Source: Myxococcales bacterium
GTDB taxonomy: Bacteria > Myxococcota_A > UBA9042
Length of the DNA: 42,152 nt
Direction: 5' to 3'
Assembly (NCBI GenBank): GCA_023954815.1
Contig: JAGSHB010000030.1
Span: forward strand, 1 to 42,152
Shown here: in pieces, positions 1-36,902 of the stretch
How positions within the stretch are numbered: the first letter of the stretch is position 1
Layout of the letters: every line of letters starts with the position of its first letter
The notes under the pieces: generated by a model
Databases searched by the model: none
Seen by the model: only the letters and a program-made list of their open reading frames with translations
What the model was told of the DNA's origin: nothing
Translations under genes and position numbers: made by a program

Positions 1-1703
1 ACGACGTGGGCCACATGCAGGGCGCCATTGGGCCCGACCAGATAGCGAGACTCGCCGAGCTCGTGAACCAGCAGGGTCTGCCGCTGATTGGCGAGCACCA
101 ACTCGATCTCCAAAGGCTCCGGCGTCGGAGGATGCTGGGGAATTCCCCCCTGCGCGGCGAGGAAGAAGGCGTTGACGTCGGCGTGACGCTGACGGCGATA
201 CTCGACGATGGCACCAAAGCACAGCGCCTCGAATGTACGGCGATGCTGCGCAACTTCACCGTCGGCCAGCGCCCGATCCAGCCAGCCGGTATCCGCCGAG
301 CCATCGGTGACCTCATCGCGCTCGAGTAGTTCGAGCAGCAGCGCCTTGTTGGTGGCGCCATCCTCGATCACGACCTGCAACTCGCTCAGCGCGCGGCGCA
401 ACCTGGCAACAGCCTGCCGCCGGGTGGCGCCCGTCGCGATGACCTTGGCGATCATCGAATCGAACTCGGCGGCGATGACACTGCCCTCAGCGATCCCGCT
501 ATCGACCCGGATTCCTGGGCCGGAAGGGGGACGAAACACGGTGACTTTGCCGGGACTGGGCGCAAAACCGCGGGCTGCATCTTCGGCACACAGGCGGGCT
601 TCAATAGACCAGCCACGGACCTGAGGTGGCGTGCCATCTGCGTTCAAGGCACCACACTCGGTGAGGCTCAAGCCGCGAGCGACGTCGATCTGCGCGTGCA
701 CCAGATCGATCCCAGTCACGCATTCGGTGACGGTATGCTCGACCTGTAGCCGGGAGTTCACCTCCAGGAAACACGCCTGCTCCGTCACCGGGTTGTAGAG
801 GAACTCAGCCGTGCCCGCGCTCTGGTAGCCGGCCTTTTCCGCCAAACGAACCGAGCTCTCGCAGAGCAGGCGCTCCATGTGGGGCGGCAGCACAGACGAG
901 GGGGCCTCTTCCAGGATCTTCTGGTTACGGCGCTGGATGCTGCAATCGCGGACGCCGAGCGCCACCGTCTTGCCATCGGCACCGCCGACCAGCTGCACCT
1001 CGACATGGCGAGCGCCCGTCACGCAGGCCTCGAGCAACAAGCCACCTGCGCCGAAGACCTTGCGTACTTCCTCGCGCACGGCGCCGACCGCAGCCAAGAG
1101 CGCATCGGCGCTGTCGACCTTGCGAATCCCGCGACCGCCGCCGCCGGCTGATGCCTTGACCATGATGGGGTAGCCGATGCGGGCTGCTTGGGCGATGATT
1201 TCGTCGGGCTCGACCTCGGCTGGCACTTGCCACCAGGGCGCGAGTGGTACGCCGCAGTCTTCAGCGAGGGTTTTGGCGGCGATCTTGTCGCCCAGTCGGT
1301 CCATGGCTTCAGCGGACGGACCCAAGAAAATGAAGCCAGATTGCTCCAATTTACCTACAAAAGCAGCGTCCTCGGCCGCAAACCCCCAGCCGGGCCAGAC
1401 CGCATCGCATCCCGAACGCCGCAGGGCCGCGATGACCCGATCGATGTCGAGATAGGCGCTGATCATGGCGCCATCGGGGCCTGGCACCATGGCCGGTCCA
1501 ATGCACAAGGCGTCGTCGGCGAGTCGCGTGAACGGCGAGCCTGCATCGGGCTCGGTGTACAGCGCCACCGAACTCAGCTGTGTCTGCCGTTCAGCGTTGT
1601 AGTCACGCACCGCGCGGCAAAAGCGCACCGCGGGCTCTCCACGATTGAGGATAGCGATGCGGCTCATCTCGGCCGCGGGGGAATTTGGGTGTGTGTGGCT
1701 CAT
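1..1703 (-). CDS. Acyl-CoA carboxylase, biotin carboxylase part (partial, runs off the window)
   Basis: The N-terminal 567 codons of an open frame that has no stop before the window edge. Biotin carboxylase carboxylates a biotin carrier with ATP and bicarbonate, the first half-reaction in making malonyl-CoA. The N-terminal domain starts near AILNRGEPAVRF. The ATP-grasp glycine loop KASAGGGGRGIRKV lies near residue 180, and the family signature EVNSRLQVEHTVTE near residues 311-325. The BC C-terminal domain (GWSIEARLCAED onward) ends around residue 450-470. About 100 further residues continue into a linker or biotin-transfer-like region, so the protein is longer than a stand-alone AccC (about 450 aa). 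It may be a fused BC-BCCP-CT carboxylase, but that part is not visible. The ATG at 1703 overlaps the acpS stop as ATGA, which supports translational coupling and this start. A second in-frame ATG is at 1667. It is the last visible gene of the fas operon. Confidence 0.9.
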   Translation of the reverse strand, partial: MSHTHPNSPAAEMSRIAILNRGEPAVRFCRAVRDYNAERQTQLSSVALYTEPDAGSPFTRLADDALCIGPAMVPGPDGAMISAYLDIDRVIAALRRSGCDAVWPGWGFAAEDAAFVGKLEQSGFIFLGPSAEAMDRLGDKIAAKTLAEDCGVPLAPWWQVPAEVEPDEIIAQAARIGYPIMVKASAGGGGRGIRKVDSADALLAAVGAVREEVRKVFGAGGLLLEACVTGARHVEVQLVGGADGKTVALGVRDCSIQRRNQKILEEAPSSVLPPHMERLLCESSVRLAEKAGYQSAGTAEFLYNPVTEQACFLEVNSRLQVEHTVTECVTGIDLVHAQIDVARGLSLTECGALNADGTPPQVRGWSIEARLCAEDAARGFAPSPGKVTVFRPPSGPGIRVDSGIAEGSVIAAEFDSMIAKVIATGATRRQAVARLRRALSELQVVIEDGATNKALLLELLERDEVTDGSADTGWLDRALADGEVAQHRRTFEALCFGAIVEYRRQRHADVNAFFLAAQGGIPQHPPTPEPLEIELVLANQRQTLLVHELGESRYLVGPNGALHVAHV

Positions 1704-2131
1704 ATGTCAGCGTCCTGCCTGGCCGAACCGGCCCTTTCCAAGATGACAAATGCGGTCGCTACCTGGCCGTCGTGGCTCAGGGAGACGTGCGGGCGCAAGG
1801 CGCCGAGTTTTTGGGTCTCGTCGGCCACGCGGCCATGGAGACGCAGAGCGGGTCTGCCGAAGCGGTCGTTGACGACCTCGATATCGCGTAGGTCGATCCA
1901 CCCGAGAGCCGGTGGTTGACCGTAGTTTCCGATGGACCACGCTTTGATGAAGGCCTCTTTGGCGGCGTAGCGAGCGGCGAGGTGCACGGCCGGGTCTTTC
2001 GATGGCCTCATCGCGGAAGAGACCCGTTCTGATTCGGTAAAAACGCCAGCGGCAAAGGACGAGGCTGGATCCGCAAGCTGTGTGCGGAAGCCGTCAATGT
2101 CGACGATGTCTGTGCCAATGCCCAAAATCAT
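1700..2131 (-). CDS. acpS: Holo-[acyl-carrier-protein] synthase AcpS
   Basis: 143 aa, slightly longer than typical AcpS (about 125 aa). It transfers 4'-phosphopantetheine from CoA to a serine of acyl carrier domains. Family motifs are all visible: GTDIVDID near the N-terminus (Asp8 is the metal ligand), RYAAKEAFIKA at about 54-64 (Glu59 and Lys63), and HVSLSHD near 114-120. It starts 32 bp after the fas stop and ends overlapping the carboxylase start (ATGA). The obvious substrate is the ACP domain of the adjacent synthase, because fungal FAS carries its own PPT domain but actinobacterial FAS-I relies on a separate AcpS, as here. The same fas-acpS order is found in Mycobacterium. Confidence 0.95.
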   Translation of the reverse strand: MILGIGTDIVDIDGFRTQLADPASSFAAGVFTESERVSSAMRPSKDPAVHLAARYAAKEAFIKAWSIGNYGQPPALGWIDLRDIEVVNDRFGRPALRLHGRVADETQKLGALRPHVSLSHDGQVATAFVILERAGSARQDADI

Positions 2132-2163
2132 GCGGTGTGCCTAGCCCCGTTCGGTCTGATCCG

Positions 2164-5100
2164 TCAATCCACTGTGCGTGGTTCCGGGTTGATTTCAATG
2201 CGCCCCTCCGGGTCGAGGAGCATCGCCAACTCTTCGGCTTGTTGGCTGATTGGCCGGGTGGTTTGCCGCTCAAACAGGTCCGCGTCGCCCCGCAGGATAC
2301 GTACCCGCCGTGCCATGGATTGACGCTCCCGCTCGGCCGCTTTGGACCGCCACGCTGCCCAAGACGGACCTGTACCTTCAGGCCCCTCCTCCCGGCGCAG
2401 CATGGCCTCAAAGGTGAGACTGTTCAGCACGAGCGCGATGGCGCCGACATGACCAAACCCCAAACTCGTGACCAACCCTGCACGCATCGGCTCGCTGCTA
2501 CGCATCGCACGATCGCTGAAGGTCAGATCGGAGAACTTCCGCATGGCTGGATCGACACACTCCAGATTGCGATTACCCGCGACGACGCCCTCTGTAAGCG
2601 ACTGGCACAGCCCGATGAGCTGGAAAGCAGCCGCGCCACCCTTGCTATGACCGGTGAGGGTTTTTTGGGAGACAATGTGCAGCGGATTTCCCGCTGAACG
2701 CCCGAGTGCACGGGCAATTGTCTGGTGAATCAGATTTTCGTTGGGATCGTTGGCGGCCGTCGATGTGTCGTGCTTGTAGATGACCTTGATGTCGTCCGCG
2801 TCGAGTCCGAACCGGTCCAAAGCCTGTGCGAGCGGTGACCGTTTACCCCCCATCGCTGCGGCCACCACGCCGAGCCCAGGCGCCGGAATTGAGGTGTGAA
2901 CGCCGTCGGAAAATGAGCCGGCCCAGGCCAAGACGCCGCGTACGGGCAACCCCAAATCGCGCGCCACATCACCACGGCACAATAAGATGGTGCCGCCCCC
3001 CTGCGCCTCGACAAATCCTCGGCGCCTGAGGTCGTTGGCCCGGGACATCTGATCGGGAGCGAGGCCCATGGCCGTCATCTGCTCGGTGTTGGCCGTTGCG
3101 GCCATGTCCGCAAACCCGACCACAGCCTCGCCGCCAACGTCGTCGAAGCCACCGGTGACGCTGAAATCGACGCGACCGGACAAGATCTTGTCCATGCCCT
3201 CGGCCAACGACACGGCGGCGGTGGCACAGGCCGCGACCGGATGCACCATCGGCCCGTAGCTACCGATGTAGGACTGCACGGCATAGGCCGCCACCACGTT
3301 GATCAGACTCTCCTGGACGATGTCGCCCTGGCGCTCCCTGTCCAGCAGCTGATCGGTGAACAGGCGCCGAATACTCTGCATCCCGCCCATACCGCTACCC
3401 TGGGTGTTGGCGACGCGTGCCGGGTGTACGTGGGACATCAGCTCATCGGGCCGCATGCCAGCGCTCAGAAAGGCGTCAGCGGTGGCCACGAGATTCATCA
3501 AGGTGACGCGATCGACGCTCTCGATCATGTCTCCCGGAAGGCCAAATCGAGCGAGTTGCGTCCCCGTGGGCAGCATACCGAGCACCTTTCGATCGAGCTT
3601 GGCGATACGCGGAACACGGATTTCTGCGCCGGCGGTACGGGTCACTTGCCAGCGACCAGCTGTGCATGAGACCCGGGTATGCGCTGGGTCGGCAGCGACG
3701 AACGAGCGCGCTTCTGCCTCGTCCATCACGTCGAACGAGAAGTCGCGATCGAGCCACGCGGTCGCCAGCACAGGCAGCGCGTCGGGGTCAAAGCCGGCGG
3801 CGACCTCCTCCGTCCAGCGGATACCGGACGCCTTGCGCACGGCGTCGCCATAGCGCGTGGTGATCTCGCTCTCTGTGATGGGCCTGTCGGTGGCCACATC
3901 GTACCAAGAGCCGCCACGGGCGCTGTCTTTCCAGGTACACAAGCCACACATCCAGGCCAGCTCGATCACCGCTGCCGGCGCCAACTCGTCCTGCACCTCC
4001 AAGGCCCAGCGCGTGCGGGCGCTGCCGCAGGGGCCCAACTCGCCGACGCCGACAATGACCACTGTCTCGGACAGTGGCGCGCTGGGGAGGGGCCAATTGC
4101 CTACCTCACCCTGCGCTTCTGGCCATGCTGGCGGCCACGAAGGAAGGGGGGTCACTGTAACCGCGGGGGTTGTGTCGTCCCCCAGCGCAAGCAGGGCCCG
4201 TTCGGCCGTGCGCAACGTGTTAAGCGCCCGCGTATGCCGCACTTTGTCGGCCAAATCGGCTCGAATCCGGCCAACCACTGCACGAATATCGGCGATTCGA
4301 CCAAACCCACCCGTCAAATCAGCCTGAAGCGGTGCCGTGCGGGCAAAGTCAGCGACTTCGTCCGTGCAGAGGGCAGCCAGGAGCCAACCCATTTCGGCGT
4401 TGGCAAACGTACGAGCGCCAGTCCGATGCTCCAGCTCCGCTGCGACGGAATCGTTGGCATCCATCAGGCCCGTACCGCGAACCCAGCCAATACGCGCCGC
4501 GCACAGGGTCGTCGCCGCGGCCCACGCATCGCGCTCCGAATCCCATTTATTACAAAGCACTTCGAGACCAGCCTTGGTTTCGGCATAGGCGCCGTCCCCA
4601 CCGAACCCGCCGTGATTGGGCGACAGCGGCAGCACCACATGAGCGGGCCGCCCTGGCATGCCCTGGCGCCGATAGCGGGCGCCAATCGCACCGACCAAGC
4701 GCTCGACGCCGGTGAGCATGACGCGGATCGCCGCCTCGGAGCGCGCGCTGAAGGTATCGAGCGTCGCCGAATCACCCAAAGCGGCAAAAGGCACGATGAT
4801 ATCGGGCGAAAAGGGCGCTTTCAGCTCGCGAACACGGGCGCCGTCGGGCGCTGTGACCCGCTCAAATAGCCACGAAACCAGCGCGTCGACATCTTGCTGC
4901 GAGGCTTGGTTGAAGGGCACCACATGCAATTCGGCGCCAGGGGCTGCCTCGGCTTGATAAAATTGGCTGTACCAAGCCATCCGCTCCCGTTTCGGAGAAC
5001 TTGTTGTCACCACCACACGGGCACCGCCGCGCAACAGATGCCGCACGATTTCGATGGCGATCGAGCCTGGGCTCGCGCCGGTGACCAGGGCTGTACGGCC

Positions 5101-8100
5101 TACGAACATCATCGGCTTGACGGCGCTGTCTCGCAGGGCGGAGAGCCAAGCGGCGTCTGCTGCTGGATCGGCAAGTTGGACGTGGGCCTGCTCGTCTGCG
5201 GGGCGCAAGCTCGTGATCAGCCGCTCAATAGCGCCGGGCGCCGTATCGCTGATCTCCGAAAACGTCCGCCCACCTGTGGCCGTGAGCTGCAGAGAGGGAC
5301 GGCTTGGCGACAGCGGCATCACCTGTGCCCCCCGGCCGCTGGCCAAATCTCGCAGGGCCGCTGCGAGCCAAGAAACACCCGCCTGCTCGGCTTTTTGCGC
5401 GTGAAATAGCGCTCTGCTGACGACCGCGGAGTCGGTTGCAAAGGCGGTCAACCTAGCGAGCTTCGCCAGCGCCTTGTCGCGCTCACCCCGGCTCCCGTGG
5501 TGGTACGCCAACGTGACGTCGCGCCGGGCCCAGGCCCACGACGAAGTCAGCGCCACGTGCTGTTGGGCTGAAAAGCGCGGCGCCACCCAGTCGAGCCATG
5601 CCTCGCCATGCTCTGCCGCGAGCAGTGCGGCGGTGTCGGCGTCAGGGTCCTGCGTCACTTGTCCTGGCGCCTCAGCAGCAAGCCCGAGGCGCTCCGAGGC
5701 ATCGCCGATGATGGACGCGAGCAGGCCATCTGGGCCCAGAATCTTGTCCTCAAGCTGCTGGACCACCGCAGCATCCACAGCGGCGCCAGCCGTCTCCGCG
5801 ACCTGGTCCACAGGCGAAATCGGCGAGCCGATGGCGCTGGAGAGATGGCTCGCTAGTGTGTCGAGAACTGGCGTGACGTCCGCTGGGGAAGTGGCCACAT
5901 CCAGAGCCACAAATGCGCCGCCGCGGGCCGATTCGCCAGCGCGATCGACCAAGCACAGGGTGTTGAGCGCTGCAGCGACCAATCCATCACCGAGCCCGAA
6001 ACGCTGGGCTAAAATCGCGCTGACGTCTCTGCGGGCCAAGCCAGCGCGACCGAAGACGCGGCGGACCGATTCATCCTGCGCCTTGCCGAGATAACCTCCC
6101 GGGCAATGCCACGCGCCAGCCCGCTGGGCCAATGTATCTGCGAGCTTGGCGATCGGAATCTCGTGCGCGCCGTCGATGGGCCCAGCATCGAACTCGGCGC
6201 CGATGTCGACGAGTGCCTGATTGCGGCGCGAAGAGACGCCGCCAAACAGATCGTCGATGGTTTCGCTGCCCTGCACTTGCGCCACGTGCACCTTTGCCTG
6301 CATCGCCAGCAACGTCTTCAAGCCATCGAGGTGGGAGACCGGCCGATCGGTGACAGCAGCGATGGCATTGGGTTGCGGCGGCGCGGCTACGACGACCGGA
6401 CTCGCCGCCGGTGTCGTCGTGACGTCACGTGTGCGCGCGTCATCGACGACGTCGGCTGCGGTGGCATCGACTGCCGGAGCTGGGGCGTCGGTTGGCAAGA
6501 CGGACTCCAGGGTCACCGTGTCCCGCATCATGACGCTATCGGCGTCCATCCCGACATTGCGCACCCGCGTGGACGTGTGGCCCTTCGCCGCTATGGTCTG
6601 TTTGGCCATGGTCGCGACAGTCGGCTGGGTGGCCAGGCCGACCTCGACCCACTCCCCGATCGCCAAGCCGCCCTCGGAGGCTGCACTAAGTAGGACATCC
6701 TGGCTCTCGATCCACCGAACAGGACTAGCGAATTGAAAGGCGAAGAGCTCCCGAACCAGGGTGCGCGCGAAGGCGTCCGGCTCTTGGACCAACGTCTCGT
6801 ATCCATCGAGCAGCGCTTGAATTTCCGGGGCAGAAGTCGCGTCAAACATCGCCTGGACGAAAGCGAGATCGAGCGAAAAGGGGATGGCGACAAGGTTGGG
6901 CACGTAGGTCCCGATGAGCCGGAGATAGCCGGTTGGGGGCAGCAACCGCTCCAAGACGGTGCGAAATGCGGGCACGCCATCGCGCAGACGCGTGCTGTGA
7001 AAGGGCACGTCGATACCGGGCACGAGGACCCACGGCGACTTTGCACCTGGACGCTGACTGGCCATCAGTCGCCGCTCTAGCTCTGCGAGAGCGGGCAGCG
7101 CTCCCACGGTTGCGTATTGCCGACCCCGCACATTGAAGTTGACGATTTCGACAAAACCGCCGGTTTCTTCGGCGACATCGCGCACCAGCTCAAGGGCGCC
7201 CTGGTGACTCATCCCGGCATGGTGGGGGCGAATGACGCCCATGGCATACCCGCTGCGACCGGTGGCATCGCGAGGAACGCAGGTGTGCATGGTCATGCCG
7301 CGCTGCCAAACCACACGCACGACGGTTTCAAGTGGTAAGACCTCGGCGACGGCGCTCAGCGCATTGTACTCGCCGATGCTATGACCACAGACCACCGCCC
7401 CGTCGACCAGCGTTCCTGCTTCCCGCAGCTCTGCGACCTGGGCATGGGCCAGGGTTGCCATGGCCACTTGGGTGTACTGCGTGAGATGCAAAACGCCCTT
7501 GTCATGGATGTCGTGGCGGCCCTGGCAGATGAGTTGCTTGGGGTTGTTGCGCACCACATCGAGCAGCGAAAAGCCAAGCTCGGAGCGGGTCACCCGGTCA
7601 GCGGCATCCCACACGGCGCGAGCGGCGGCCGACCTGTCGTAGCCGTCCATGCCCATGCCTTGGCGCTGAATTCCCTGACCGGGAAAGACGTAGGCCGTGG
7701 GCAGCGGCGCGATGACCGCACTCGCCGACAGGGCTGTGCCGGTTGGCGTCGTCACCGTGATGTCGGCGATCAGACGCCCTTGCTCGACTCCGGTACGAAC
7801 GGCGCGCAGCTCCAGCGGCTGTCCCGGTAGGACCGGCGCTTGAAAGTGCGTGTCAAATTGCAGGAGGCGGGCCGCATCGCCTGCACACAGCTCACTGACG
7901 ACGAAGGCACGGGAACGGGCGGCGGACCACATGCCGTGGACGATGGGGCCACTCAATCCGGCTAGCCGCGCGATTGCAGTGCTGCGATGGATGGGGTTGT
8001 AGTCGCTGCTGACCTCCGCCCATGAAGACAGTTCCATGGGCGCGCGATCAGCCACAGCGGCCAAATCAGATGGAGCCGTCGCCACCCGCTTGCTGTCCGC

Positions 8101-11100
8101 GCCAAGGAGTTGGCGCAGCGCTACGAGTGGATGCACCCCCGTATGATCGGCCGAAAAGCGCTGATCGAGCTTGCCGCGACCAAGGGCTGAGGTACCGGTG
8201 ATCTGTACGTCCGCTCCAAAGCGAACGCCCTTGTCGGTGTGAGATGTGCGCTCACTACCGATCAGGGTCAGGGTCTCCCCCATCTGCGGGAGCTCGGAGA
8301 AAGAGAGCCACTCATGCTCGACCAAGAAGGCCAGCTGGGCCGGGTCTTTGCAGACCAGTTGCGCGGTGATGTCGCGCTCAGTCTCTGTGATTAGACCGGG
8401 GTTGAAGCCGCGTAGGAAGAAGACTTCGTCAGCCGTGGCGACCAACTGCAACCCGCGATGCAGCGCCAGCGTCGCCTCGACGCGCGTACCATCGCCGCTG
8501 CCATGCGCGATGTGGGTCAGCTGCGCGGTCACCTCGACCTGCTCACCGGCCACCAGCGGCCAGCCGGCGGCGGGCACAACGGCATGTTCCAGGTGCACCA
8601 AGTTGAGCAGGCCAGCGGCGAGTTCATCGCAGCTCAGCGCTTGCATCAAGGCTGGAAACCCAAGGCTGAAGACCAGATCTGCGCTCATCGCGGGCGCGTC
8701 CTCTTGGTGCACACTGCCCGGAAGCACGCCGCTCAATCGGCCATAGGCCTTGGCGACCGGGGCATCGACGGTGGCGGGACAGGTGATGGGCTCAAAGAGA
8801 TGACAGGCGCCGAGGGGCGCTCCGAAGAGGTTGAGGTGATAGAACTCCCGGACCTCATCTGGCGACAGCGCAGACAACAGGACGCTGCCCGCCGGTGTGA
8901 TGAGGAAGTGACGACGCAGCGGAGCGGTGGGACGGCCCTTTGCTGCAGGTAGAGAGACCGTAAACGTCACGGACGGCCCGGACATCGACAGCGTGACGCG
9001 CTCATCTGATGCTGTGGACAAGTGCCACGACAGGGACGAAATCACGTCGTCTGTGTGGGTGATCGTCAGTGTAGCCCCTGGCTCGGCGAGGCAGACTTGG
9101 CGAACCGGGTTGGTCACCAGACGGGCGTCACCGGGTTCATCAGCAAAGACGGTGTCGGCGGCGAAGACTGCGGCAATCGGCCCGGAAAATCGGGCCGCGA
9201 GCGGTTGGAACCAGCTGTGTGAGTCCACATCTGACACAACGTGCCAGGTGGTCTGATCCCCCGAGGTGTGCGATTCGATGCCTGCCGGCAGACCAACGTG
9301 GGCCGGCACCTGCAAGAAAGCGCGATGCGACAGGGCTTGATCGCCAACATGAGCGATCATGGCTTGTTCGAAGCGACCGAGCAGGTGGGCGATCGGCTCA
9401 TCTGCCGTCTCGATGCCACGCAAGGCCTCTGGGCCAGGGATGATCATGACCTGATCGGCGTCAAACCGAGGGTCATGCGCCTGCCAAAGCGAGTCGGACT
9501 TGTACCAGCGGCGCACGTCCGCATCGATCGTGGGCACGAAGTTCACCGGCTTGCCGGGGCGTGCGCAGATCTTCTTCACGAAGGTGTCTTCGTCGACCGG
9601 GTGGGGCAGCTGGCTGCTGGCGTGGGGGTAGCGCTCGAGCAGTTCGGCGATGACGGCGGTGGGGTCATCGAGCGCGGCGATATCGCCGACGAGACTAGCC
9701 ACCTCTGCCGCCGAATGGTGCAGGCGCCCCTCAGCCAGCGCGATGACATCGGCCACGCGCTGCCGATAGGAGACGTCGGGCCAGATGCCGTCCTCGTACG
9801 GACCCGAGCGCCCAATCGCCATCAATTCGACAAGCCGGTTGAGCACAGACGACCAGCTCATCCGGGCAAAATCACCGAAATACGGCTTCGCGGTGGCATC
9901 CAAGGCAGCGATGATGGCGGGCCGCTGAGCCGCGATCGCTTCAGCATCGCCAGCGACGCTGTCGAGTAGTCGACCACAGCGCGCGGCGGCGTTGTCGAGA
10001 TAGTGAATATCCGCACCGAGCTGGCTCAATCCAGAGGTCATGCCGCCCACGACGGCACCAGAGGGGACCCAATCGGTTGTTCCAGCTGCAGCCACGAGCG
10101 CCGCTTTGACCTGGGGAGAGGTGGCCGCCTCCTTGCACGCCATCGTCACGGTGCCGAGCAGCACGCCGTCGATGGGCATGTCCCGCAGACCGTATTTCTT
10201 CGCCCAGTGACCCACGACGAGCGCGGTGGCCCGCTCGGCGTCGGCAATACCACCGCCGACGCACAAGATGACGTTGGCACGCTGCCGCACCTTGTCGTAG
10301 CAGCGCAGCAGCAGGCCCTCGAGATCTTCCCAGCTGTGGTGACCGCCCGCTTTGCCGCCCTCCAGGTGCATAAAGACGGTGTGAGCTGGCGCGGCGTCCG
10401 CGATGGCCAACACCTGATCGACCTGCCGTACCGTGCCCGGCTTGAAGACGTTCAGATGCATACCGAGCGCCGCCCACTCGCCGAGCAGCATCGCGCCTTC
10501 GTCTGCGCTGGGAATGCCGGCGCTGACGGTGACTCCAGCTATCGGGATCCCAGATTTGCGGGCTTTTTGTACCAATTTCGCGCCGCTGAGATGCAGATCC
10601 CAGAGGTAGCGATCCATGAACAACGCGTTGAATGTGAACGTCGCTCCTGGTGTCAAACGACCGGCGAGCTCCGCCATGCGTTTGTGGAAAATGTCGGCGG
10701 TGACCTGACCACCACCGGCGAGTTCTGCGGTGAAGCCAGCATTTGCCGCAGCGGCGACGATGGGGGCATCGGCGGTGGTCGGTGTCATACCCGGCAAGAT
10801 CACAGGCGCGTGACCGGTGGCGCGACTATAGGCGTTGTCGAGACGAATCGTGCCGTCGGCAAGCTGGACGCGACCGGGTGCGTAGTCGCTGTACTTGGGC
10901 GGGTACGTCACCCCCTTTGGCGTCAGTAAAGCGGCCCGTCCCGAGGGTTCTGACAGCGACAACACAGGCACGCCTAGACCAGCCAGTCGGTTTGTCGTCA
11001 GGCGAGCCACCCCAGGCCCGACGCCAAAGTCCAAAACGGCGTCTGTACCACGAGCGACGGCGCCATCGATGACGTTTGCCCAGCGCACCGGATCGACAAA

Positions 11101-12141
11101 TTGCAGGCGCATGACCTTGTCCAGCAAGGTCGCTGCGGTCACAGCGTGGCCCTCAGCGACAAGGGCCTCGGCGAGCGGCATCCCCACCGCAGAGTCGAGC
11201 ACGCAGAGCGCCAATTCGGCCGGATTGATGGTGAAGCCTTCCTCAGCCATCACCTCCCGCATCAACTCCAATCCAGGCGCATTGAACGCGCTATGGAAGG
11301 GGCATTCGACGGTCAGGGGATGAAAGGCGAACGTGAAGGCAGATCCGCCCTTGCGGGCTTGTTTCTCGGCCGATTGGCGCGCGAGCAGCTTGGCGTGGAG
11401 ACGGTCGACGGCAGCCGGTGTGCCACTGATCACGTGCCGCGTTCGACCGTTGATCATGGCGATAACCAGCGGCTCGGCCTCCTCATCAACCAGCCCAGAC
11501 AAAGACGCAATGGTCGGTCCCACGACAGCCGCCATACATGGGCCATCAGCGTCCGTCACACCTGTGCGGTCAGCCGCGCACCACCCCTGCCAAGCCAAAT
11601 AGACCGCGAAATCTGCCACACGCTGGGCGTCGATGGCGCCGCGATGGTGGGTCTCCGACACCCACAGCGCTGTCATGAGCCCCTGGGAGTAGCCAATCGC
11701 CGTATCGATGACGCACCGCTCGTCCGTCACGTCGAAGGCAGCGGCGAGGCCGGACTCCAAAATCTGAATGTAGCGAACCACCTGAGTCAAAAAGATGGCG
11801 GGCTGAGATACGGCGCCGCTCTGCAACGAGCGCGCGGGCGGCACATCGCTGGTGCCCCGCAGCCAACCCAACAAGTCAAATCCATGACCGCACAAGCCTG
11901 ACCAACGAACCCGCTTGCTGTCTCCGAAGACCTGTAGACGCGCAGCCGCAGCCTCGACGATGGGCCAACCGGCCGGGCAATCGACCAGCACGCTCCGCAA
12001 TTCAGACAGCCAGGGCGTGCCATTGCCGCCGAAGCTAATGGTCGCGCGCGCGTTTCCCCGGGCCAAGTCATCGGCAAGCGAGCCTGGAGCTGCCGCGCGA
12101 ACAAAGGAATGACTTCCTAGCGGTGAAATTGAGACGGACAT
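2164..12141 (-). CDS. fas: Type I fatty acid synthase (mycobacterial-type FAS-I megasynthase)
   Basis: About 3,325 aa from ATG 12141; mycobacterial FAS-I is about 3,070 aa. It builds acyl-CoA from acetyl- and malonyl-CoA. Domains, numbered from that ATG: acetyltransferase with GYSQG near 150 and FHS near its end; FMN-type enoyl reductase with EGGKAGGHHSWEDL near 600; MaoC-like dehydratase with SDYNPIH near 1380 and IVHGMW; malonyl/palmitoyl transferase with YVFPGQGIQ, GHSIGEY near 1590 and PGIDVPFHS; a Pro/Ala linker and one ACP with GGVSSRRNQ (predicted phosphopantetheine Ser1970); ketoreductase with VTGASPGSIA near 2355 and AYAETK near 2518; ketosynthase with VAACATAAVS near 2972, KHDTSTAANDP near 3122 and TLTGHSKGGA near 3160. 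There is no C-terminal PPT domain; acpS follows. I prefer ATG 12141, preceded by GGAG at 5 nt spacing, over an in-frame TTG at 12228 that lies within a TTGACA box. It is certain to be FAS rather than a PKS from the fungal-type ER, MPT and KS signatures. Confidence 0.97.
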   Translation of the reverse strand: MSVSISPLGSHSFVRAAAPGSLADDLARGNARATISFGGNGTPWLSELRSVLVDCPAGWPIVEAAAARLQVFGDSKRVRWSGLCGHGFDLLGWLRGTSDVPPARSLQSGAVSQPAIFLTQVVRYIQILESGLAAAFDVTDERCVIDTAIGYSQGLMTALWVSETHHRGAIDAQRVADFAVYLAWQGWCAADRTGVTDADGPCMAAVVGPTIASLSGLVDEEAEPLVIAMINGRTRHVISGTPAAVDRLHAKLLARQSAEKQARKGGSAFTFAFHPLTVECPFHSAFNAPGLELMREVMAEEGFTINPAELALCVLDSAVGMPLAEALVAEGHAVTAATLLDKVMRLQFVDPVRWANVIDGAVARGTDAVLDFGVGPGVARLTTNRLAGLGVPVLSLSEPSGRAALLTPKGVTYPPKYSDYAPGRVQLADGTIRLDNAYSRATGHAPVILPGMTPTTADAPIVAAAANAGFTAELAGGGQVTADIFHKRMAELAGRLTPGATFTFNALFMDRYLWDLHLSGAKLVQKARKSGIPIAGVTVSAGIPSADEGAMLLGEWAALGMHLNVFKPGTVRQVDQVLAIADAAPAHTVFMHLEGGKAGGHHSWEDLEGLLLRCYDKVRQRANVILCVGGGIADAERATALVVGHWAKKYGLRDMPIDGVLLGTVTMACKEAATSPQVKAALVAAAGTTDWVPSGAVVGGMTSGLSQLGADIHYLDNAAARCGRLLDSVAGDAEAIAAQRPAIIAALDATAKPYFGDFARMSWSSVLNRLVELMAIGRSGPYEDGIWPDVSYRQRVADVIALAEGRLHHSAAEVASLVGDIAALDDPTAVIAELLERYPHASSQLPHPVDEDTFVKKICARPGKPVNFVPTIDADVRRWYKSDSLWQAHDPRFDADQVMIIPGPEALRGIETADEPIAHLLGRFEQAMIAHVGDQALSHRAFLQVPAHVGLPAGIESHTSGDQTTWHVVSDVDSHSWFQPLAARFSGPIAAVFAADTVFADEPGDARLVTNPVRQVCLAEPGATLTITHTDDVISSLSWHLSTASDERVTLSMSGPSVTFTVSLPAAKGRPTAPLRRHFLITPAGSVLLSALSPDEVREFYHLNLFGAPLGACHLFEPITCPATVDAPVAKAYGRLSGVLPGSVHQEDAPAMSADLVFSLGFPALMQALSCDELAAGLLNLVHLEHAVVPAAGWPLVAGEQVEVTAQLTHIAHGSGDGTRVEATLALHRGLQLVATADEVFFLRGFNPGLITETERDITAQLVCKDPAQLAFLVEHEWLSFSELPQMGETLTLIGSERTSHTDKGVRFGADVQITGTSALGRGKLDQRFSADHTGVHPLVALRQLLGADSKRVATAPSDLAAVADRAPMELSSWAEVSSDYNPIHRSTAIARLAGLSGPIVHGMWSAARSRAFVVSELCAGDAARLLQFDTHFQAPVLPGQPLELRAVRTGVEQGRLIADITVTTPTGTALSASAVIAPLPTAYVFPGQGIQRQGMGMDGYDRSAAARAVWDAADRVTRSELGFSLLDVVRNNPKQLICQGRHDIHDKGVLHLTQYTQVAMATLAHAQVAELREAGTLVDGAVVCGHSIGEYNALSAVAEVLPLETVVRVVWQRGMTMHTCVPRDATGRSGYAMGVIRPHHAGMSHQGALELVRDVAEETGGFVEIVNFNVRGRQYATVGALPALAELERRLMASQRPGAKSPWVLVPGIDVPFHSTRLRDGVPAFRTVLERLLPPTGYLRLIGTYVPNLVAIPFSLDLAFVQAMFDATSAPEIQALLDGYETLVQEPDAFARTLVRELFAFQFASPVRWIESQDVLLSAASEGGLAIGEWVEVGLATQPTVATMAKQTIAAKGHTSTRVRNVGMDADSVMMRDTVTLESVLPTDAPAPAVDATAADVVDDARTRDVTTTPAASPVVVAAPPQPNAIAAVTDRPVSHLDGLKTLLAMQAKVHVAQVQGSETIDDLFGGVSSRRNQALVDIGAEFDAGPIDGAHEIPIAKLADTLAQRAGAWHCPGGYLGKAQDESVRRVFGRAGLARRDVSAILAQRFGLGDGLVAAALNTLCLVDRAGESARGGAFVALDVATSPADVTPVLDTLASHLSSAIGSPISPVDQVAETAGAAVDAAVVQQLEDKILGPDGLLASIIGDASERLGLAAEAPGQVTQDPDADTAALLAAEHGEAWLDWVAPRFSAQQHVALTSSWAWARRDVTLAYHHGSRGERDKALAKLARLTAFATDSAVVSRALFHAQKAEQAGVSWLAAALRDLASGRGAQVMPLSPSRPSLQLTATGGRTFSEISDTAPGAIERLITSLRPADEQAHVQLADPAADAAWLSALRDSAVKPMMFVGRTALVTGASPGSIAIEIVRHLLRGGARVVVTTSSPKRERMAWYSQFYQAEAAPGAELHVVPFNQASQQDVDALVSWLFERVTAPDGARVRELKAPFSPDIIVPFAALGDSATLDTFSARSEAAIRVMLTGVERLVGAIGARYRRQGMPGRPAHVVLPLSPNHGGFGGDGAYAETKAGLEVLCNKWDSERDAWAAATTLCAARIGWVRGTGLMDANDSVAAELEHRTGARTFANAEMGWLLAALCTDEVADFARTAPLQADLTGGFGRIADIRAVVGRIRADLADKVRHTRALNTLRTAERALLALGDDTTPAVTVTPLPSWPPAWPEAQGEVGNWPLPSAPLSETVVIVGVGELGPCGSARTRWALEVQDELAPAAVIELAWMCGLCTWKDSARGGSWYDVATDRPITESEITTRYGDAVRKASGIRWTEEVAAGFDPDALPVLATAWLDRDFSFDVMDEAEARSFVAADPAHTRVSCTAGRWQVTRTAGAEIRVPRIAKLDRKVLGMLPTGTQLARFGLPGDMIESVDRVTLMNLVATADAFLSAGMRPDELMSHVHPARVANTQGSGMGGMQSIRRLFTDQLLDRERQGDIVQESLINVVAAYAVQSYIGSYGPMVHPVAACATAAVSLAEGMDKILSGRVDFSVTGGFDDVGGEAVVGFADMAATANTEQMTAMGLAPDQMSRANDLRRRGFVEAQGGGTILLCRGDVARDLGLPVRGVLAWAGSFSDGVHTSIPAPGLGVVAAAMGGKRSPLAQALDRFGLDADDIKVIYKHDTSTAANDPNENLIHQTIARALGRSAGNPLHIVSQKTLTGHSKGGAAAFQLIGLCQSLTEGVVAGNRNLECVDPAMRKFSDLTFSDRAMRSSEPMRAGLVTSLGFGHVGAIALVLNSLTFEAMLRREEGPEGTGPSWAAWRSKAAERERQSMARRVRILRGDADLFERQTTRPISQQAEELAMLLDPEGRIEINPEPRTVD

Positions 12142-12199
12142 GGGGGCTCCACAATCGACAGCCGAACGGCGATAGACCGCCCAGTCTAGATTGCGGGGC

Positions 12200-12228
12200 A
12201 GATTGGGAGAGGTCAGATCATCTGTCAA
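12200..12228 (-). promoter_or_regulatory. Candidate fas promoter (-35) with overlapping palindromic operator
   Basis: Reading toward fas, a perfect TTGACA lies at 12228-12223. It overlaps by one base an 11-bp perfect palindrome, CAGATGATCTG (12224-12214). A matching -10 is weak (CAATCT at 17-nt spacing, 12205-12200), so the promoter call is tentative. The spot is between the tetR stop (12265) and the preferred fas ATG (12141), which suits an operator for the TetR protein encoded just upstream. Confidence 0.4.
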
Positions 12229-12264
12229 TCAAAGGGTTTCATCCGCAATGACAGTCGCGTTCCG

Positions 12265-12879
12265 TCACTCGATTACGCGGCCGATCGCCGGGCCCATCAC
12301 GGCCATGAATTCACGCACGGAAACGGTCGCATCTGCGCGCTCTGGGTCGCTGATATCTTGGATGATGAGTCCGCTGTAGGCCCCAAAAATGACCGCCGCG
12401 ATACCTCTGATCTGCGATTCTGTGCAGCTGTTTTCGAGCGCAGGCCGCAGAATCTCGGCGATGGCGGTGCGCGCGCGGCGGTAAAATTTGGCCAGCGCTT
12501 GTTGGATCGCGGGATCGCGGGTCGCGTGGGCGGTAAACTCCAACCAGAGCGGTACGATAGCCCGGCCGCGGTGAATTTCCCGGCCGAGCGCTGCGGTCAC
12601 AGCCGACAGGTAGTCATCCCCGAGCACCGCGTCTTCGAACTGCTCATATAATTCGTCCATGACCTCGCGGGTCCAGGTCTCCAAGATATCGACAAAAACA
12701 TCCTGTTTGCTGGGGTAGTGCCAATAGAAGCTACCCTTGCTGATCGCCGCCTGGGCGCAGATCGCATCGACCGTCGTCTCGTGATAGCCGCCCACCCGGA
12801 AGCAGTGGAAGGCGGCGAGGCGAATCTGCTTGCGCTTTTCGGCAGCGCGTTTTCCGACGGTCGGTTTGGTCGTTGGCAT
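12265..12879 (-). CDS. TetR-family regulator, probable local regulator of fas
   Basis: 204 aa. The N-terminal helix-turn-helix spans about residues 15-60 and includes the typical TetR run AISKGSFYWHYPSKQDVF. The C-terminal ligand-binding part (about 65-204) is helical and not diagnostic of a ligand; acyl-CoA is a reasonable guess from context only. It lies on the same strand as fas, 123 bp upstream of the preferred fas ATG, and could be co-transcribed with it. In Mycobacterium the fas-acpS operon is controlled by the TetR-type protein FasR, so function may be parallel, but I cannot say whether this protein is orthologous. An AGGG lies about 9 nt before the ATG. It is transcribed divergently from the sensor kinase at 13023. 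Confidence 0.9.
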   Translation of the reverse strand: MPTTKPTVGKRAAEKRKQIRLAAFHCFRVGGYHETTVDAICAQAAISKGSFYWHYPSKQDVFVDILETWTREVMDELYEQFEDAVLGDDYLSAVTAALGREIHRGRAIVPLWLEFTAHATRDPAIQQALAKFYRRARTAIAEILRPALENSCTESQIRGIAAVIFGAYSGLIIQDISDPERADATVSVREFMAVMGPAIGRVIE

Positions 12880-12952: not shown

Positions 12953-13022
12953 GTCGGCTGTCTGGGCATCGAGTCAAAGCTCCCCCCTTGCGGCCAGATG
13001 CCAGAGAGGTTCCACTCGGGTC

Positions 13023-14639
13023 GTGCATCGCTTTTCCCTATCGACGCGGATCTTCATCGCCTTCGCCATCGTCGTGGCGGCGTTTGGTACTGCTGCCGCT
13101 TATGGGGTCGCCACAACCATGGGCCTGCGTCATGAATTGGGCTTTTTGCGTAAGCGCACGGTTCCGCTGCTGCGCACGTTGCGGGACAACGGCCTGGAGC
13201 TACGCGGCTTCGATGAGGCGTTGCAGCGCGCTGCCCCGCACGACCTCGATTGGGTAGCGCGATTTGTGCCAAACGCCCGACCTTTCCGCCGTCTCGATGG
13301 TATTTTGAGCCAAATTGGGGCGCTGCACGAGGACGCCCGGCCACCGCGCTTGGTGCGCCTGCTCGTCGGTCCGCCGGCCCCGGTGCCGGCCATTGGTCAA
13401 GACTTGGTCGCGCTGAGAACATCCCGCGATGCCGCGATGCGGATGGCCCGCGACACCGCCCTGTTGCCGCTGCTTGGCCCGCGTTTTGAGGCGGCGACCG
13501 ACGAAGTGGCTTTTTCCAGTCTCGTGACCGCTTTGCAGCGCGCCGTGGCTGACAAGCGCTACACCGATGCCGCGCGGCTGGTGGTCGAGATCAGACGCAT
13601 CGTGCGGCGAATCCATCGCGGCGTGGAGGGCGTCGAGCGCCAGCTAGAATCCGCTCTCAACGATCGGTTTGCCCAGGCGCAGCAGAGCGAAGCACGACTC
13701 GGCATCGTCGTGGCGAGTTCTGCCGCCATCGCCCTGTTGGTCGCGGTCATTGTGTTGCTGGTGATGGTGATCACACTGCGTCCCATGGCCGCGCTCGCAG
13801 AGGTGGTGCGCCGTTTTGCCGCTGGAGAGCGAACCGCGCGGGCCGATACCGGCGGCGCCGCCGAGATTCGACAGCTGGCCGTCGAGTACAATCGCATGGC
13901 CGATGCGCTAGCGGAGCGCGAGCGCGAGATCGCCGCCCAGCGAGAAGATCTGGCCCGTTCCGAGCGTCTCGCGACCTTGGGCCACATGGCCGCGCGGGTG
14001 GTCCACGAGATCAGAAACCCCCTGAGCTCCATCGGCCTCAACGCTGAACTGTTGGCCGACGAGCTCGACGACAGCGATGAAGCGAGAGAGCTGCTCAATG
14101 CTATCGGCGCGGAGGTTGAAAGGCTCCGCAACATCACCGAGGGCTATCTGCAACGGGCGAGGCCGACCCCCCAGATCGAAAAGCGCGTCACCCTGAGTCT
14201 ACTGCTGACGCGGCTGGCCGATTTTGCCCGGGCAGAGCTCGCTGAACGCGGTGTCAGCGCCCACGTCTCGGCGCAAGATGGGGTCTCCGCTGACATCGAT
14301 CCGCGCATGCTCAGGCAGGCGCTGTGGAACCTGGTGCGCAACGCGTGGGAGGCGATGCCCGATGGCGGAACCGTCTGGGTCGAGGCCCGTCATGGCGGGG
14401 TGCCCGGAAAGGCGGAAGTCATCATCGCGGTCGAGGATTCCGGGCCAGGAATCCCCATGGAGCTTCGCGCGCAGCTGTTTGAGCCCTTCTTTACCACCAA
14501 AGAGACCGGCACCGGCGTGGGTCTGGCTTTGGTGCAAGAGGTGGCACGGAGTCATGGGGGTCAAGTCGGGGTGGTGGCCGGACAACATGGCGACGGCGCA
14601 CGCTTTGAGATCAGCCTGCCGGCGCCTGGAAACCACTGA
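13023..14639 (+). CDS. Membrane-bound sensor histidine kinase
   Basis: 538 aa from a GTG start. It has a first membrane segment at about residues 8-30 and a periplasmic sensor region of about 195 aa. A second membrane segment lies at about 226-252, followed by a HAMP domain (about 253-305) and a coiled stretch. The HisKA domain has phospho-acceptor His328 in VVHEIRNPLSS. The ATPase domain has N-box NLVRNAWEAM near 436, G1 EDSGPGIP near 470 and GTGVGLALVQ. These features define a class I, NtrB-like transmembrane kinase. No response regulator is encoded next to it, so it is an orphan whose partner and signal are unknown. The gene is divergent from tetR and convergent with the helicase, ending 51 bp from the helicase stop. 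Confidence 0.93.
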   Translation: MHRFSLSTRIFIAFAIVVAAFGTAAAYGVATTMGLRHELGFLRKRTVPLLRTLRDNGLELRGFDEALQRAAPHDLDWVARFVPNARPFRRLDGILSQIGALHEDARPPRLVRLLVGPPAPVPAIGQDLVALRTSRDAAMRMARDTALLPLLGPRFEAATDEVAFSSLVTALQRAVADKRYTDAARLVVEIRRIVRRIHRGVEGVERQLESALNDRFAQAQQSEARLGIVVASSAAIALLVAVIVLLVMVITLRPMAALAEVVRRFAAGERTARADTGGAAEIRQLAVEYNRMADALAEREREIAAQREDLARSERLATLGHMAARVVHEIRNPLSSIGLNAELLADELDDSDEARELLNAIGAEVERLRNITEGYLQRARPTPQIEKRVTLSLLLTRLADFARAELAERGVSAHVSAQDGVSADIDPRMLRQALWNLVRNAWEAMPDGGTVWVEARHGGVPGKAEVIIAVEDSGPGIPMELRAQLFEPFFTTKETGTGVGLALVQEVARSHGGQVGVVAGQHGDGARFEISLPAPGNH

Positions 14640-14690
14640 ACCAACTCGAGCAATTGGGGCGGCTGCCGCTGGGACCGAAAATGCGAGCCC

Positions 14691-16679
14691 TCACCGACTC
14701 TCGTGAAAGGCCTCAAAGAAGCCGCTGACATCGTCGTAGTCGTGCGTACAGGTAGCATCTGGCAAGGCGCGAATCAGAGCGCGGCCATAGCCTTTGGTGA
14801 CCATTCGCGGGTCTAGGATGGCGACGACGCCCGTGTCCTGCTGAGAGCGAATCAACCGGCCGAAGCCTTGCCTCAGTGACAGCGCCGCGGCCGGCAGACT
14901 GAGTTTGCCGAATGACGAGTTCCCCTCCGCCTCCACGCGCTCCGATCGGGCTGCGAATAGGGGGTCGTCGGGCGGGGGAAAGGGGATCTTGTCGAGCATC
15001 ACGAGGCGCAGATCATCGCCTGGCAAATCCACTCCCTGCCAAAACCCCATGGTCGCAAAAAGCACCGCCGGCTGCTGCTCGGAAAATCGCGCCAAGAGCG
15101 CGTCCCGACTCTCCTCGCCCTGCATCAAGCAAGGCACGGTCAGCACCTTTCTGAGCCGCGCGTAGGCGTCTCGCATCCCGCGATAACTGGAGAAAAGCGC
15201 AAAAGCACCGCCAGCACTGGCATCGACCAACCGCGCGATCTCCGCCGCCACCGCAGCCTCGCGGCCCCGCTGAAAGGGCGCTGGCAGGTGCTTGGGCAAA
15301 TAGAGCAGCGCTTGATTCGGATAGTCAAAGGCGCCCGGCACGCGCAGGGTCGTGACGTCCTCCGCCAGACCGAGACGGCTACAGAACGGCTTGAAGTTGT
15401 CGCCCATGGCCAGGGTCGCCGACGTGAAGATACGCACGGCAGGCTCGGCGAGAAGCGTGCGCTGCATCACTGGCCCGACCACCACCGGCCGCGCCACAAT
15501 GGCGGTGCTCCGCGAACGCGCCTCGACCCAACGCACCATGCCATCGGCCTCTTCGGGGGATAACAAGGTGGCCAGATCGGTCTGCAGGGTCTCCAGGTTG
15601 TCTCGCACCCTGGCCATCGCGACGTCTTGGGCGAAGGTCCCCAGCACGGTCCACAGCCCATCACAGGCCCGGTGCAACTTGCTGTGGCTGGCATGCAGCC
15701 GGATGAGGGCCTCATCATCGAGGCGCCGCTGCCCGGCTTCGTCCCGCGCGGCTGAAAAGAGCGCTGCTGCCGCCACGCCGAGACCACGCAGGCGCTTGTG
15801 CGCATCGTCGGCGCTCCTGGGCTCGTCGGCATCGAGATTCACCAGCACTTCGCCCACATCTCGGCGCAACCGGTCGACGCGATTGGAGGACACAGACTGA
15901 CCAAAAAAGTTCGACGCGACGTCTTCGAGGGCGTGGGCTTCGTCGATGACCAACGCCTCGGCCGCCGGCAGCAGCGCGGCGCCGTCAAAGCGCTCTCGCA
16001 CCGCAAAATCAGCCAATAAGACGTGGTGATTGACCACGACCACATCCGCTTTGAGGGCGCGACGTCGGGCTTGGGCGACGAAACACTGCTTCCATGAGGG
16101 GCAATCGCTACCAAGACAATTGTCAGCGGTGGAGGTGACCTCGGGCCAGATCGGGTGCTGGTCATCGACGCCTTCGACCTCAGCCACATCGCCAGTGTCG
16201 CTCAAGCGCAGCACCCGCGTGACGGCCCGCAGCGCTGCCGGCAACGCCATCCCCATACCGCCGTGCCGGCGCAAGGCTAGCTCCGTGCGCTCGTGACAGA
16301 CGTAGTTGCCCCGGCCCTTTAACACGGCGACGGTGACCTGAGCCCCGGTGGCTGCGATCGCCGTCGGCAGGTCATGGAAGGTGAGTTGGCCCTGAAGCTG
16401 ACGGGTGGCGGTCGAGATGATCGTGCGCTGATTAGCGGCGAGCAGCGGCAGCAGATAGGCCAGGGTCTTGCCTGTACCGGTGCCAGCTTCGATCACCACA
16501 TCTTCGCCGGTGTGCACCGCATCGGCGACCGCCGCCATCATGACCCGCTGGCCCGGTCGCGCTTCGAAATGAGCGAGATCAGCAGCCAGCGCCCCCACGG
16601 CCGTCTGCCAAGCAAGGTGGTGAACGGGCGCATTGCCGCCATTGGAAGGGGTAGTTGTAGGCGATGACGGCTGGTTCAA
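14691..16679 (-). CDS. dinG: DinG/YoaA-type ATP-dependent DNA helicase (iron-sulfur superfamily 2)
   Basis: 662 aa. A 5'-3' DNA helicase of the XPD/DinG group, acting in repair and in resolving unusual DNA structures. Walker A EAGTGTGKT is at 64-72 and the DEAH box (VIDEAH) near 244. Four cysteines placed like the Fe-S cluster ligands lie between them: one in YVCHE near 127 and three in CLGSDCPSWKQC near 186-197. Motif VI-like GFGRLIRS lies near the C-terminus. The start is TTG, overlapping the stop of the upstream membrane-protein gene (TTGA), which points to translational coupling; the next in-frame ATG is 46 codons on and close to Walker A, so TTG is favoured. YoaA is an alternative name for close relatives. 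Confidence 0.9.
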   Translation of the reverse strand: MNQPSSPTTTPSNGGNAPVHHLAWQTAVGALAADLAHFEARPGQRVMMAAVADAVHTGEDVVIEAGTGTGKTLAYLLPLLAANQRTIISTATRQLQGQLTFHDLPTAIAATGAQVTVAVLKGRGNYVCHERTELALRRHGGMGMALPAALRAVTRVLRLSDTGDVAEVEGVDDQHPIWPEVTSTADNCLGSDCPSWKQCFVAQARRRALKADVVVVNHHVLLADFAVRERFDGAALLPAAEALVIDEAHALEDVASNFFGQSVSSNRVDRLRRDVGEVLVNLDADEPRSADDAHKRLRGLGVAAAALFSAARDEAGQRRLDDEALIRLHASHSKLHRACDGLWTVLGTFAQDVAMARVRDNLETLQTDLATLLSPEEADGMVRWVEARSRSTAIVARPVVVGPVMQRTLLAEPAVRIFTSATLAMGDNFKPFCSRLGLAEDVTTLRVPGAFDYPNQALLYLPKHLPAPFQRGREAAVAAEIARLVDASAGGAFALFSSYRGMRDAYARLRKVLTVPCLMQGEESRDALLARFSEQQPAVLFATMGFWQGVDLPGDDLRLVMLDKIPFPPPDDPLFAARSERVEAEGNSSFGKLSLPAAALSLRQGFGRLIRSQQDTGVVAILDPRMVTKGYGRALIRALPDATCTHDYDDVSGFFEAFHESR

Positions 16680-36739: not shown

Positions 36740-36902
36740 GGGACTCCTACCGAAAAATTGGCGCACCGAGGTGGGCGCGAAACCTGCCCACGGCAGACGA
36801 GTGCGTCAAGGGATTTGATGGTGGATTGCGTGTGGTAGCACGCCCACGCGCCGCATCGTCGGGCCCTATGCGCTGGTGCCCAACTGCGGCAGGGTACACA
36901 CC

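Follow-up and report, generated by a model that had tools for sequence, protein, structure and literature searches.

The 42,152-nucleotide contig analysed here (JAGSHB010000030.1, hereafter the window) includes, as judged from its sequence, an intact type I fatty acid synthase (FAS-I) of the fungal/CMN kind, and its host is an uncultured member of the Myxococcota, not an actinobacterium. The synthase gene lies in a cassette together with those for a TetR-family regulator, a holo-ACP synthase (acpS) and a single-chain acetyl-CoA carboxylase (ACC). We consider it likely that this cassette is a self-contained unit leading from acetyl-CoA to acyl-CoA that replaces FAS-II in a diderm Myxococcota lineage without lipid A. 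The genes, their motifs, the operon, the absences, the co-occurrence and an empty site in a congeneric genome are read from the DNA itself; the course of synthesis proposed from them is as follows. Carboxylation of acetyl-CoA by the cassette ACC would yield malonyl-CoA, and AcpS would attach phosphopantetheine to the FAS-I ACP domain. In this synthase, whose enzymatic activity is predicted, the AT domain would prime, the MPT domain would load and off-load, and the KS-KR-DH-ER cycle would lead to long-chain acyl-CoA as the product. This acyl-CoA would go to phospholipids and to other users such as the OleA/OleC olefin pathway, and the TetR protein probably tunes the cassette to the acyl-CoA supply. 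As for the order of events, lipid A and FAS-II may have been lost, after which FAS-I would have been the sole source or, in relatives, scavenging would have taken its place.

The genes of the cassette

The features of the locus are collected in Table 1. The FAS-I reading frame runs without interruption. Pfam models were found along it in the order helical/ER-associated, MaoC DH, acyltransferase (MPT), FAS ACP, FAS_I_H and KS N/C, the AT at the N-terminus giving weak matches. Together with the motifs they define the layout AT-ER-DH-MPT-ACP-KR-KS on one chain, the domain order that the first-pass annotation of this DNA had described. The motifs that align with Mycobacteriaceae FAS are GYSQG and FHS in AT, EGGKAGGHHSWED in ER, DxNPxH in DH, GHSIGE and VPFHS in MPT, GVSSRRN in ACP, GASPGSI and YAETK in KR, and ACATA, KHDTST and GHSKGG in KS, and an alignment with Mycolicibacterium, Mycobacterium and Corynebacterium FAS indicated that the catalytic residues are intact in each domain. 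No PPT domain was found in the chain with Pfam. Among solved structures the mycobacterial FAS-I structures 4v8v and 6gjc were the best matches (about 2,000 bits), followed by the fungal FAS alpha (670 bits) and beta (550 bits) subunits. Compared with one Mycolicibacterium FAS, the identity was 50-56% in ER, MPT and KS but fell to 26% in AT and to 23% in the initial half of the DH region. The M. tuberculosis FAS-I is a barrel-shaped complex of D3 symmetry (PMC6155276).

Table 1. Features of the FAS-I locus and of the corresponding empty site (window coordinates unless another contig is named).
Feature	Position	Strand	Details
ACC N-terminus (biotin carboxylase domain), 567 aa	3..1703	-	Pfam BC domains; cut by contig end
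acpS, holo-ACP synthase	1700..2131	-	Pfam ACPS 8.8e-17; NCBIfam NF000831 137.4 vs cut-off 124 bits
Type I fatty acid synthase (FAS-I)	2164..12228	-	3,354 aa; TTG start 12228; first in-frame ATG 12141
KS domain of FAS-I (approximate)	2359..3648	-	PF00109/PF02801; ACATA, KHDTST, GHSKGG
KR domain of FAS-I (approximate)	4249..5148	-	GASPGSI, PLSPNHGGFGGDGAYAETK
ACP domain of FAS-I (approximate)	5839..6348	-	PF18325 3.9e-10; GVSSRRN
Malonyl/palmitoyl transferase (MPT) domain of FAS-I (approximate)	6589..7713	-	PF00698 6e-35; GHSIGE, DVPFHS
DH region of FAS-I (approximate)	7714..9348	-	MaoC-type active half aa 1386-1505; PF01575 5.9e-18; DYNPIH
ER domain and helical part of FAS-I (approximate)	9349..10788	-	PF08354 1e-91; GMTPTT, EGGKAGGHHSWED, GGGIAD
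AT domain of FAS-I (approximate)	10939..12078	-	GYSQG at aa 179, FHS at aa 311
TetR-family regulator, first gene of the cassette	12265..12879	-	Pfam TetR_N 1.6e-13
Histidine kinase, right-hand flank	13023..14639	+	Pfam; 82.6% identical in G051
Empty site in G051	G051:C582 (L202) 12189-12327		between ACC and histidine kinase

In the Myxococcota loci that include the FAS 3' end and the next bases, acpS is the gene immediately after FAS-I. Co-expression with AcpS has been used to activate the M. tuberculosis FAS-I (PMC6155276). The adjacency of the two genes in the window had been recognised from the start, but the operon extends further than was thought, since the single-chain ACC follows beyond position 1700. 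At the other end a TetR gene adjoins FAS-I in many Myxococcota loci. We do not claim that the window copy is an orthologue of the mycobacterial FasR, the match being weak and generic (6o6n, E 5e-4). Outside the cassette, nucleotides 36876-39713 (plus strand) code for a 945-amino acid protein with a weakly MFS-like half and a spermidine-synthase-like half.

The remainder of the ACC is located on a second contig of the host genome, C258 (G000:C258 7640-11815, minus strand; locus L201). The start of the window is repeated at the end of that contig over at least 127 identical bases, the two ACC ORFs share 46 amino acids at 100% identity, and joining the contigs renders a protein of about 1,913 amino acids. 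Complete homologues are single chains of 1,700-1,900 amino acids, about 1,850 in the usual cassette, that combine BC, BCCP, a central region and CT. A model of the central region and CT of one of them (L027; mean pLDDT 75.5) had the yeast ACC holoenzyme 5csl as its best structure match (E 1.8e-47 over 1,328 columns). By sequence and by this model, the host ACC is a single-chain, eukaryote-type acetyl-CoA carboxylase.

The usual order of the cassette in Myxococcota is FAS-I-acpS-ACC, with or without a preceding TetR gene, and distantly related families of the phylum share it. In about two dozen Myxococcota loci, counted by hand and with the window among them, a large biotin carboxylase ORF follows FAS-I at a distance of no more than about 700 bases. 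Within the class of the host, 13 of the 52 genomes have both FAS-I and ACC, 3 have FAS-I only, 2 have ACC only and 34 have neither (Fisher p 8e-8, in a test that ignores relatedness although related genomes are not independent). The ACC is more widespread in the phylum than FAS-I, being found in 149 of 379 genomes; many Myxococcota without FAS-I have a single-chain eukaryote-type ACC, for example at L163 855-6449 and L181 12944-18388.

That the host genome is a MAG raises the question of whether an actinobacterial contig was assembled or binned into it by mistake. The chance of such contamination is negligible: one end of the window is repeated on another contig of this genome, the flanks of the locus are collinear with those of the congeneric genome G051 at 74-75% DNA identity, and the operon is common to many independent MAGs from other studies.

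The host envelope and the missing FAS-II

The host assembly, of which the window is contig C188, is a 6.44-Mb MAG in 314 contigs, and its 97.1% completeness limits absence calls for this single genome. The outer membrane protein BamA was matched in the host (604 bits) and in all 52 genomes of its class, and therefore the host has an outer membrane. The first-pass annotation had suggested a Gram-negative-type host, which this result supports; placement in the Corynebacterineae, which it had named as the finding that would overturn its reading, does not apply to a member of the Myxococcota with BamA. LpxC passed the cut-off in only one of the 52 class genomes, not that of the host. Because BamA is present and LpxC is missing in 51 of 52, members of the class probably have an outer membrane without lipid A.

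The models for FabF, FabH, FabZ, AcpP and LpxC gave nothing over cut-off in the host, which does not agree with the initial expectation that it would normally use FAS-II. Only three KS_C domains were found: one belongs to FAS-I, and PKS-like frames of contig C125 contain the other two. Therefore, as far as sequence models can tell, FAS-I is the only de novo fatty acid synthase detected in this genome, a result that covers FabF/B, FabH, FabZ and AcpP. The same pattern holds for the class: FabF (TIGR03150) passed the cut-off in 246 of the 379 phylum genomes and in none of the 52 of the class, the best class match (about 1e-117) lying below it. Elsewhere in the class FabH passed only in G023, FabZ only in G030, and AcpP only in G023 and G028. 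We attribute the matches of G023 (FabH, LpxC and AcpP) and of G030 (FabZ) to odd contigs or to contamination.

A divergent or unassembled FAS-II to which FAS-I merely adds, as it does in mycobacteria and in the Myxococcota families f30 and f34, would be compatible with a host assembly in 314 pieces and with the canonical FabF that accompanies FAS-I in 12 of the 21 FAS-I genomes outside the class. We regard this as quite improbable for the host, since FabF is in no class genome, the other markers appear only in the odd G023, G028 and G030, and an absence in at least 49 of 52 genomes is beyond chance gaps. For the phylum as a whole, the 12 of 21 genomes with FabF indicate that FAS-I both adds to and replaces FAS-II.

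We weighed whether the one FabH-like protein of the host could initiate FAS-II and decided against this, as the adjacent genes code for an alpha/beta hydrolase and an OleC-like olefin beta-lactone synthetase, which makes OleA its most likely identity. The OleA-like, alpha/beta hydrolase and OleC-like genes stand in a row at about 62900-66700 of G000:C212 (L204 2897-6690), and their probable function is the synthesis of long-chain olefins from acyl-CoA. The host also has a PlsX-like protein, below the family cut-off, which counts against replacement of FAS-II in so far as PlsX normally depends on acyl-ACP.

Another possibility is that the cassette makes a special lipid, for storage, for signalling or as an olefin or PKS precursor, while the bulk of the fatty acids comes from prey or the surroundings. 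The OleA/OleC and PKS genes of the host could be seen in this light, as could the many class members with neither FAS-I nor FabF, the congener G051 without the cassette, and the Bradymonabacteria, in which FabB/F and FabI are missing and scavenging of fatty acids has been proposed (PMC7460792). We find it unlikely nevertheless: this FAS-I has every domain of a housekeeping synthase as well as its own ACC and AcpS, it is not inside a specialised-lipid cluster, and the well-studied bacterial homologues are general synthases. Thus replacement of FAS-II by the cassette remains the reading that we favour.

Several other class genomes, G033-G036, G045, G048, G008, G014 and others (77-97% complete), are without FAS-I and without any KS_C domain, and the genomes of the phylum family f41 gave no FabF-like match at all. 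Both groups are candidates for complete fatty-acid auxotrophy.

Distribution, probable loss and origin

The FAS-specific Pfam family PF08354 was found in 16 of the 52 class genomes and in 37 of the 379 phylum genomes. Among 14 control genomes only Corynebacterium glutamicum had it. The taxa with FAS-I among the matches listed were Myxococcota MAGs, Corynebacteriales, Aeromicrobium, Solirubrobacter and Candidatus Ancillula, and no FAS-I relative was found in viral contigs. The FAS-I of Solirubrobacter phytolaccae (L114) is that of a Thermoleophilia actinobacterium, and its KS stands beside Myxococcota in one tree. One record titled as a Klebsiella pneumoniae MAG (L044, CAMDBH010000006.1) is a mislabelled Myxococcota contig with genes as in G040:C6.

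In the congeneric genome G051, rated '100% complete', the 11.3 kb with acpS, FAS-I and TetR are absent. The DNA that matches window positions 31-1671 and 13003-16613 is contiguous there except for 137 bases, so that the histidine kinase gene directly adjoins that of ACC, and tblastn found no trace of acpS, FAS-I or TetR in this genome. As the retained ACC is the cassette's own and its gene order has long existed in the phylum, we read the empty site as a loss. The genus, then, can do without the cassette, as this close relative shows. The loss implies that G051 obtains its fatty acids elsewhere, which fits the scavenging proposed for Bradymonabacteria (PMC7460792).

In a FAS-I tree of 57 sequences a branch with SH-aLRT 97 separates the Actinobacteria from the remaining sequences, and the window groups with the Myxococcota, outside the actinobacterial (CMN) clade. 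The window FAS-I is about 41% identical to actinobacterial FAS and 60% to that of a congener. The label 'mycobacterial-type' given to the synthase by the first-pass annotation thus fits its architecture and not its lineage. A recent transfer of fas-acpS from Corynebacteriales to the host could account for the domain order and the gene adjacency, both as in Mycobacterium, but it is highly improbable in view of the identities and the grouping just given. Moreover, the G+C content of FAS-I (0.645; GC3 0.735) is like that of the remainder of the contig, and no ACC was seen directly beside FAS-I in the actinobacterial loci examined. The sequences do not support a transfer from mycobacteria; of the two explanations first offered, an old transfer or a wider distribution of FAS-I, the occurrence in 37 of 379 phylum genomes shows the second to be the right one. 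Descent within the phylum does not appear to be simply vertical, because members of the class occur in at least two separate parts of the FAS-I tree.

The actinobacterial clade lies beside or inside the more diverse Myxococcota set. A KS tree with FabF as outgroup was rooted among the Myxococcota, with a very long outgroup branch (2.7 changes per column), and an AU test did not reject a root on the actinobacterial branch (p 0.218). At the position of KHDTST in the Actinobacteria and most other Myxococcota, the deep members L179, L180 and L181 carry HGTST, which is also found in FabF. Because the FabF-rooted tree puts the deepest FAS-I branches in Myxococcota and these deep members keep the FabF-like motif, we tentatively raise the possibility, itself doubtful, that the cassette of FAS-I and single-chain ACC is older and more diverse in Myxococcota than in Actinobacteria, and that the FAS-I of Actinobacteria, and perhaps of fungi, as well as the eukaryote-type ACC derive from a source similar to Myxococcota. 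For the single-chain ACCs an actinobacterial origin was proposed in 2019 (PMC6491548).

Relation to known fatty acid synthases

The combination of FAS-I with a eukaryote-style ACC has until now been presented as peculiar to mycobacteria, corynebacteria and fungi. According to a 2022 review, FAS-I among bacteria is restricted to Corynebacteriales (PMC9260719), a range that is widened by its presence in about a tenth of the sampled Myxococcota genomes. Searches of the open-access literature turned up no description of FAS-I in this phylum. The results suggest that FAS-I suffices as the only synthase of a Gram-negative-type cell. The reason we offer is that without lipid A nothing essential would need 3-hydroxyacyl-ACP from FAS-II, as suggested by the joint loss of LpxC and FAS-II. 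The finding also alters forecasts of fatty-acid auxotrophy in Myxococcota that rely solely on the absence of Fab genes. The predatory Bradymonabacteria share the loss of FAS-II (no FabB/F, no FabI); the paper that describes them infers scavenging and, in its available part, mentions no FAS-I (PMC7460792). The class of the window probably differs from them and seems to be uncultivated.

The closest known systems are the mycobacterial FAS-I of M. smegmatis (4v8v) and M. tuberculosis (6gjc), to which the window FAS-I is similar in its single chain, domain order, nearly full-length homology, KS KHDTST and ACP SSRRN motifs, and separate AcpS encoded in the adjacent gene. On the other hand, it belongs to a separate clade, has 3,354 amino acids versus about 3,090, is accompanied in its operon by TetR and a single-chain ACC, and occurs in a diderm without FAS-II or LpxC, while mycobacteria keep FAS-II to elongate the FAS-I products (PMC9260719). 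In Corynebacterium, FAS-I is likewise the only de novo synthase, with no FAS-II (PMC9260719), but the host is an actinobacterium and the operon is without a single-chain ACC among the loci examined.

The ACC can be compared with SACE_4237 of Saccharopolyspora erythraea, the first bacterial homodimeric multidomain ACC (PMC6491548). Both are single chains of about 200 kDa with the organization BC-BCCP-central-CT and a eukaryote-like central region; the window-type ACC, however, belongs to Myxococcota and, in those that bear FAS-I, shares one operon with FAS-I and acpS.

Fungi pair their FAS with a single-chain ACC, and the alpha subunit of fungal FAS carries its own PPT domain. The domains of the fungal alpha6beta6 enzyme are homologous to those of the window FAS-I and their overall order is equal, but they are divided between two subunits instead of lying on one chain, and the window has acpS in place of the PPT domain. 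With its FAS-I and eukaryote-type ACC, the operon parallels in a bacterium what fungi have, and the pairing bears on the origin of eukaryotic FAS and ACC.
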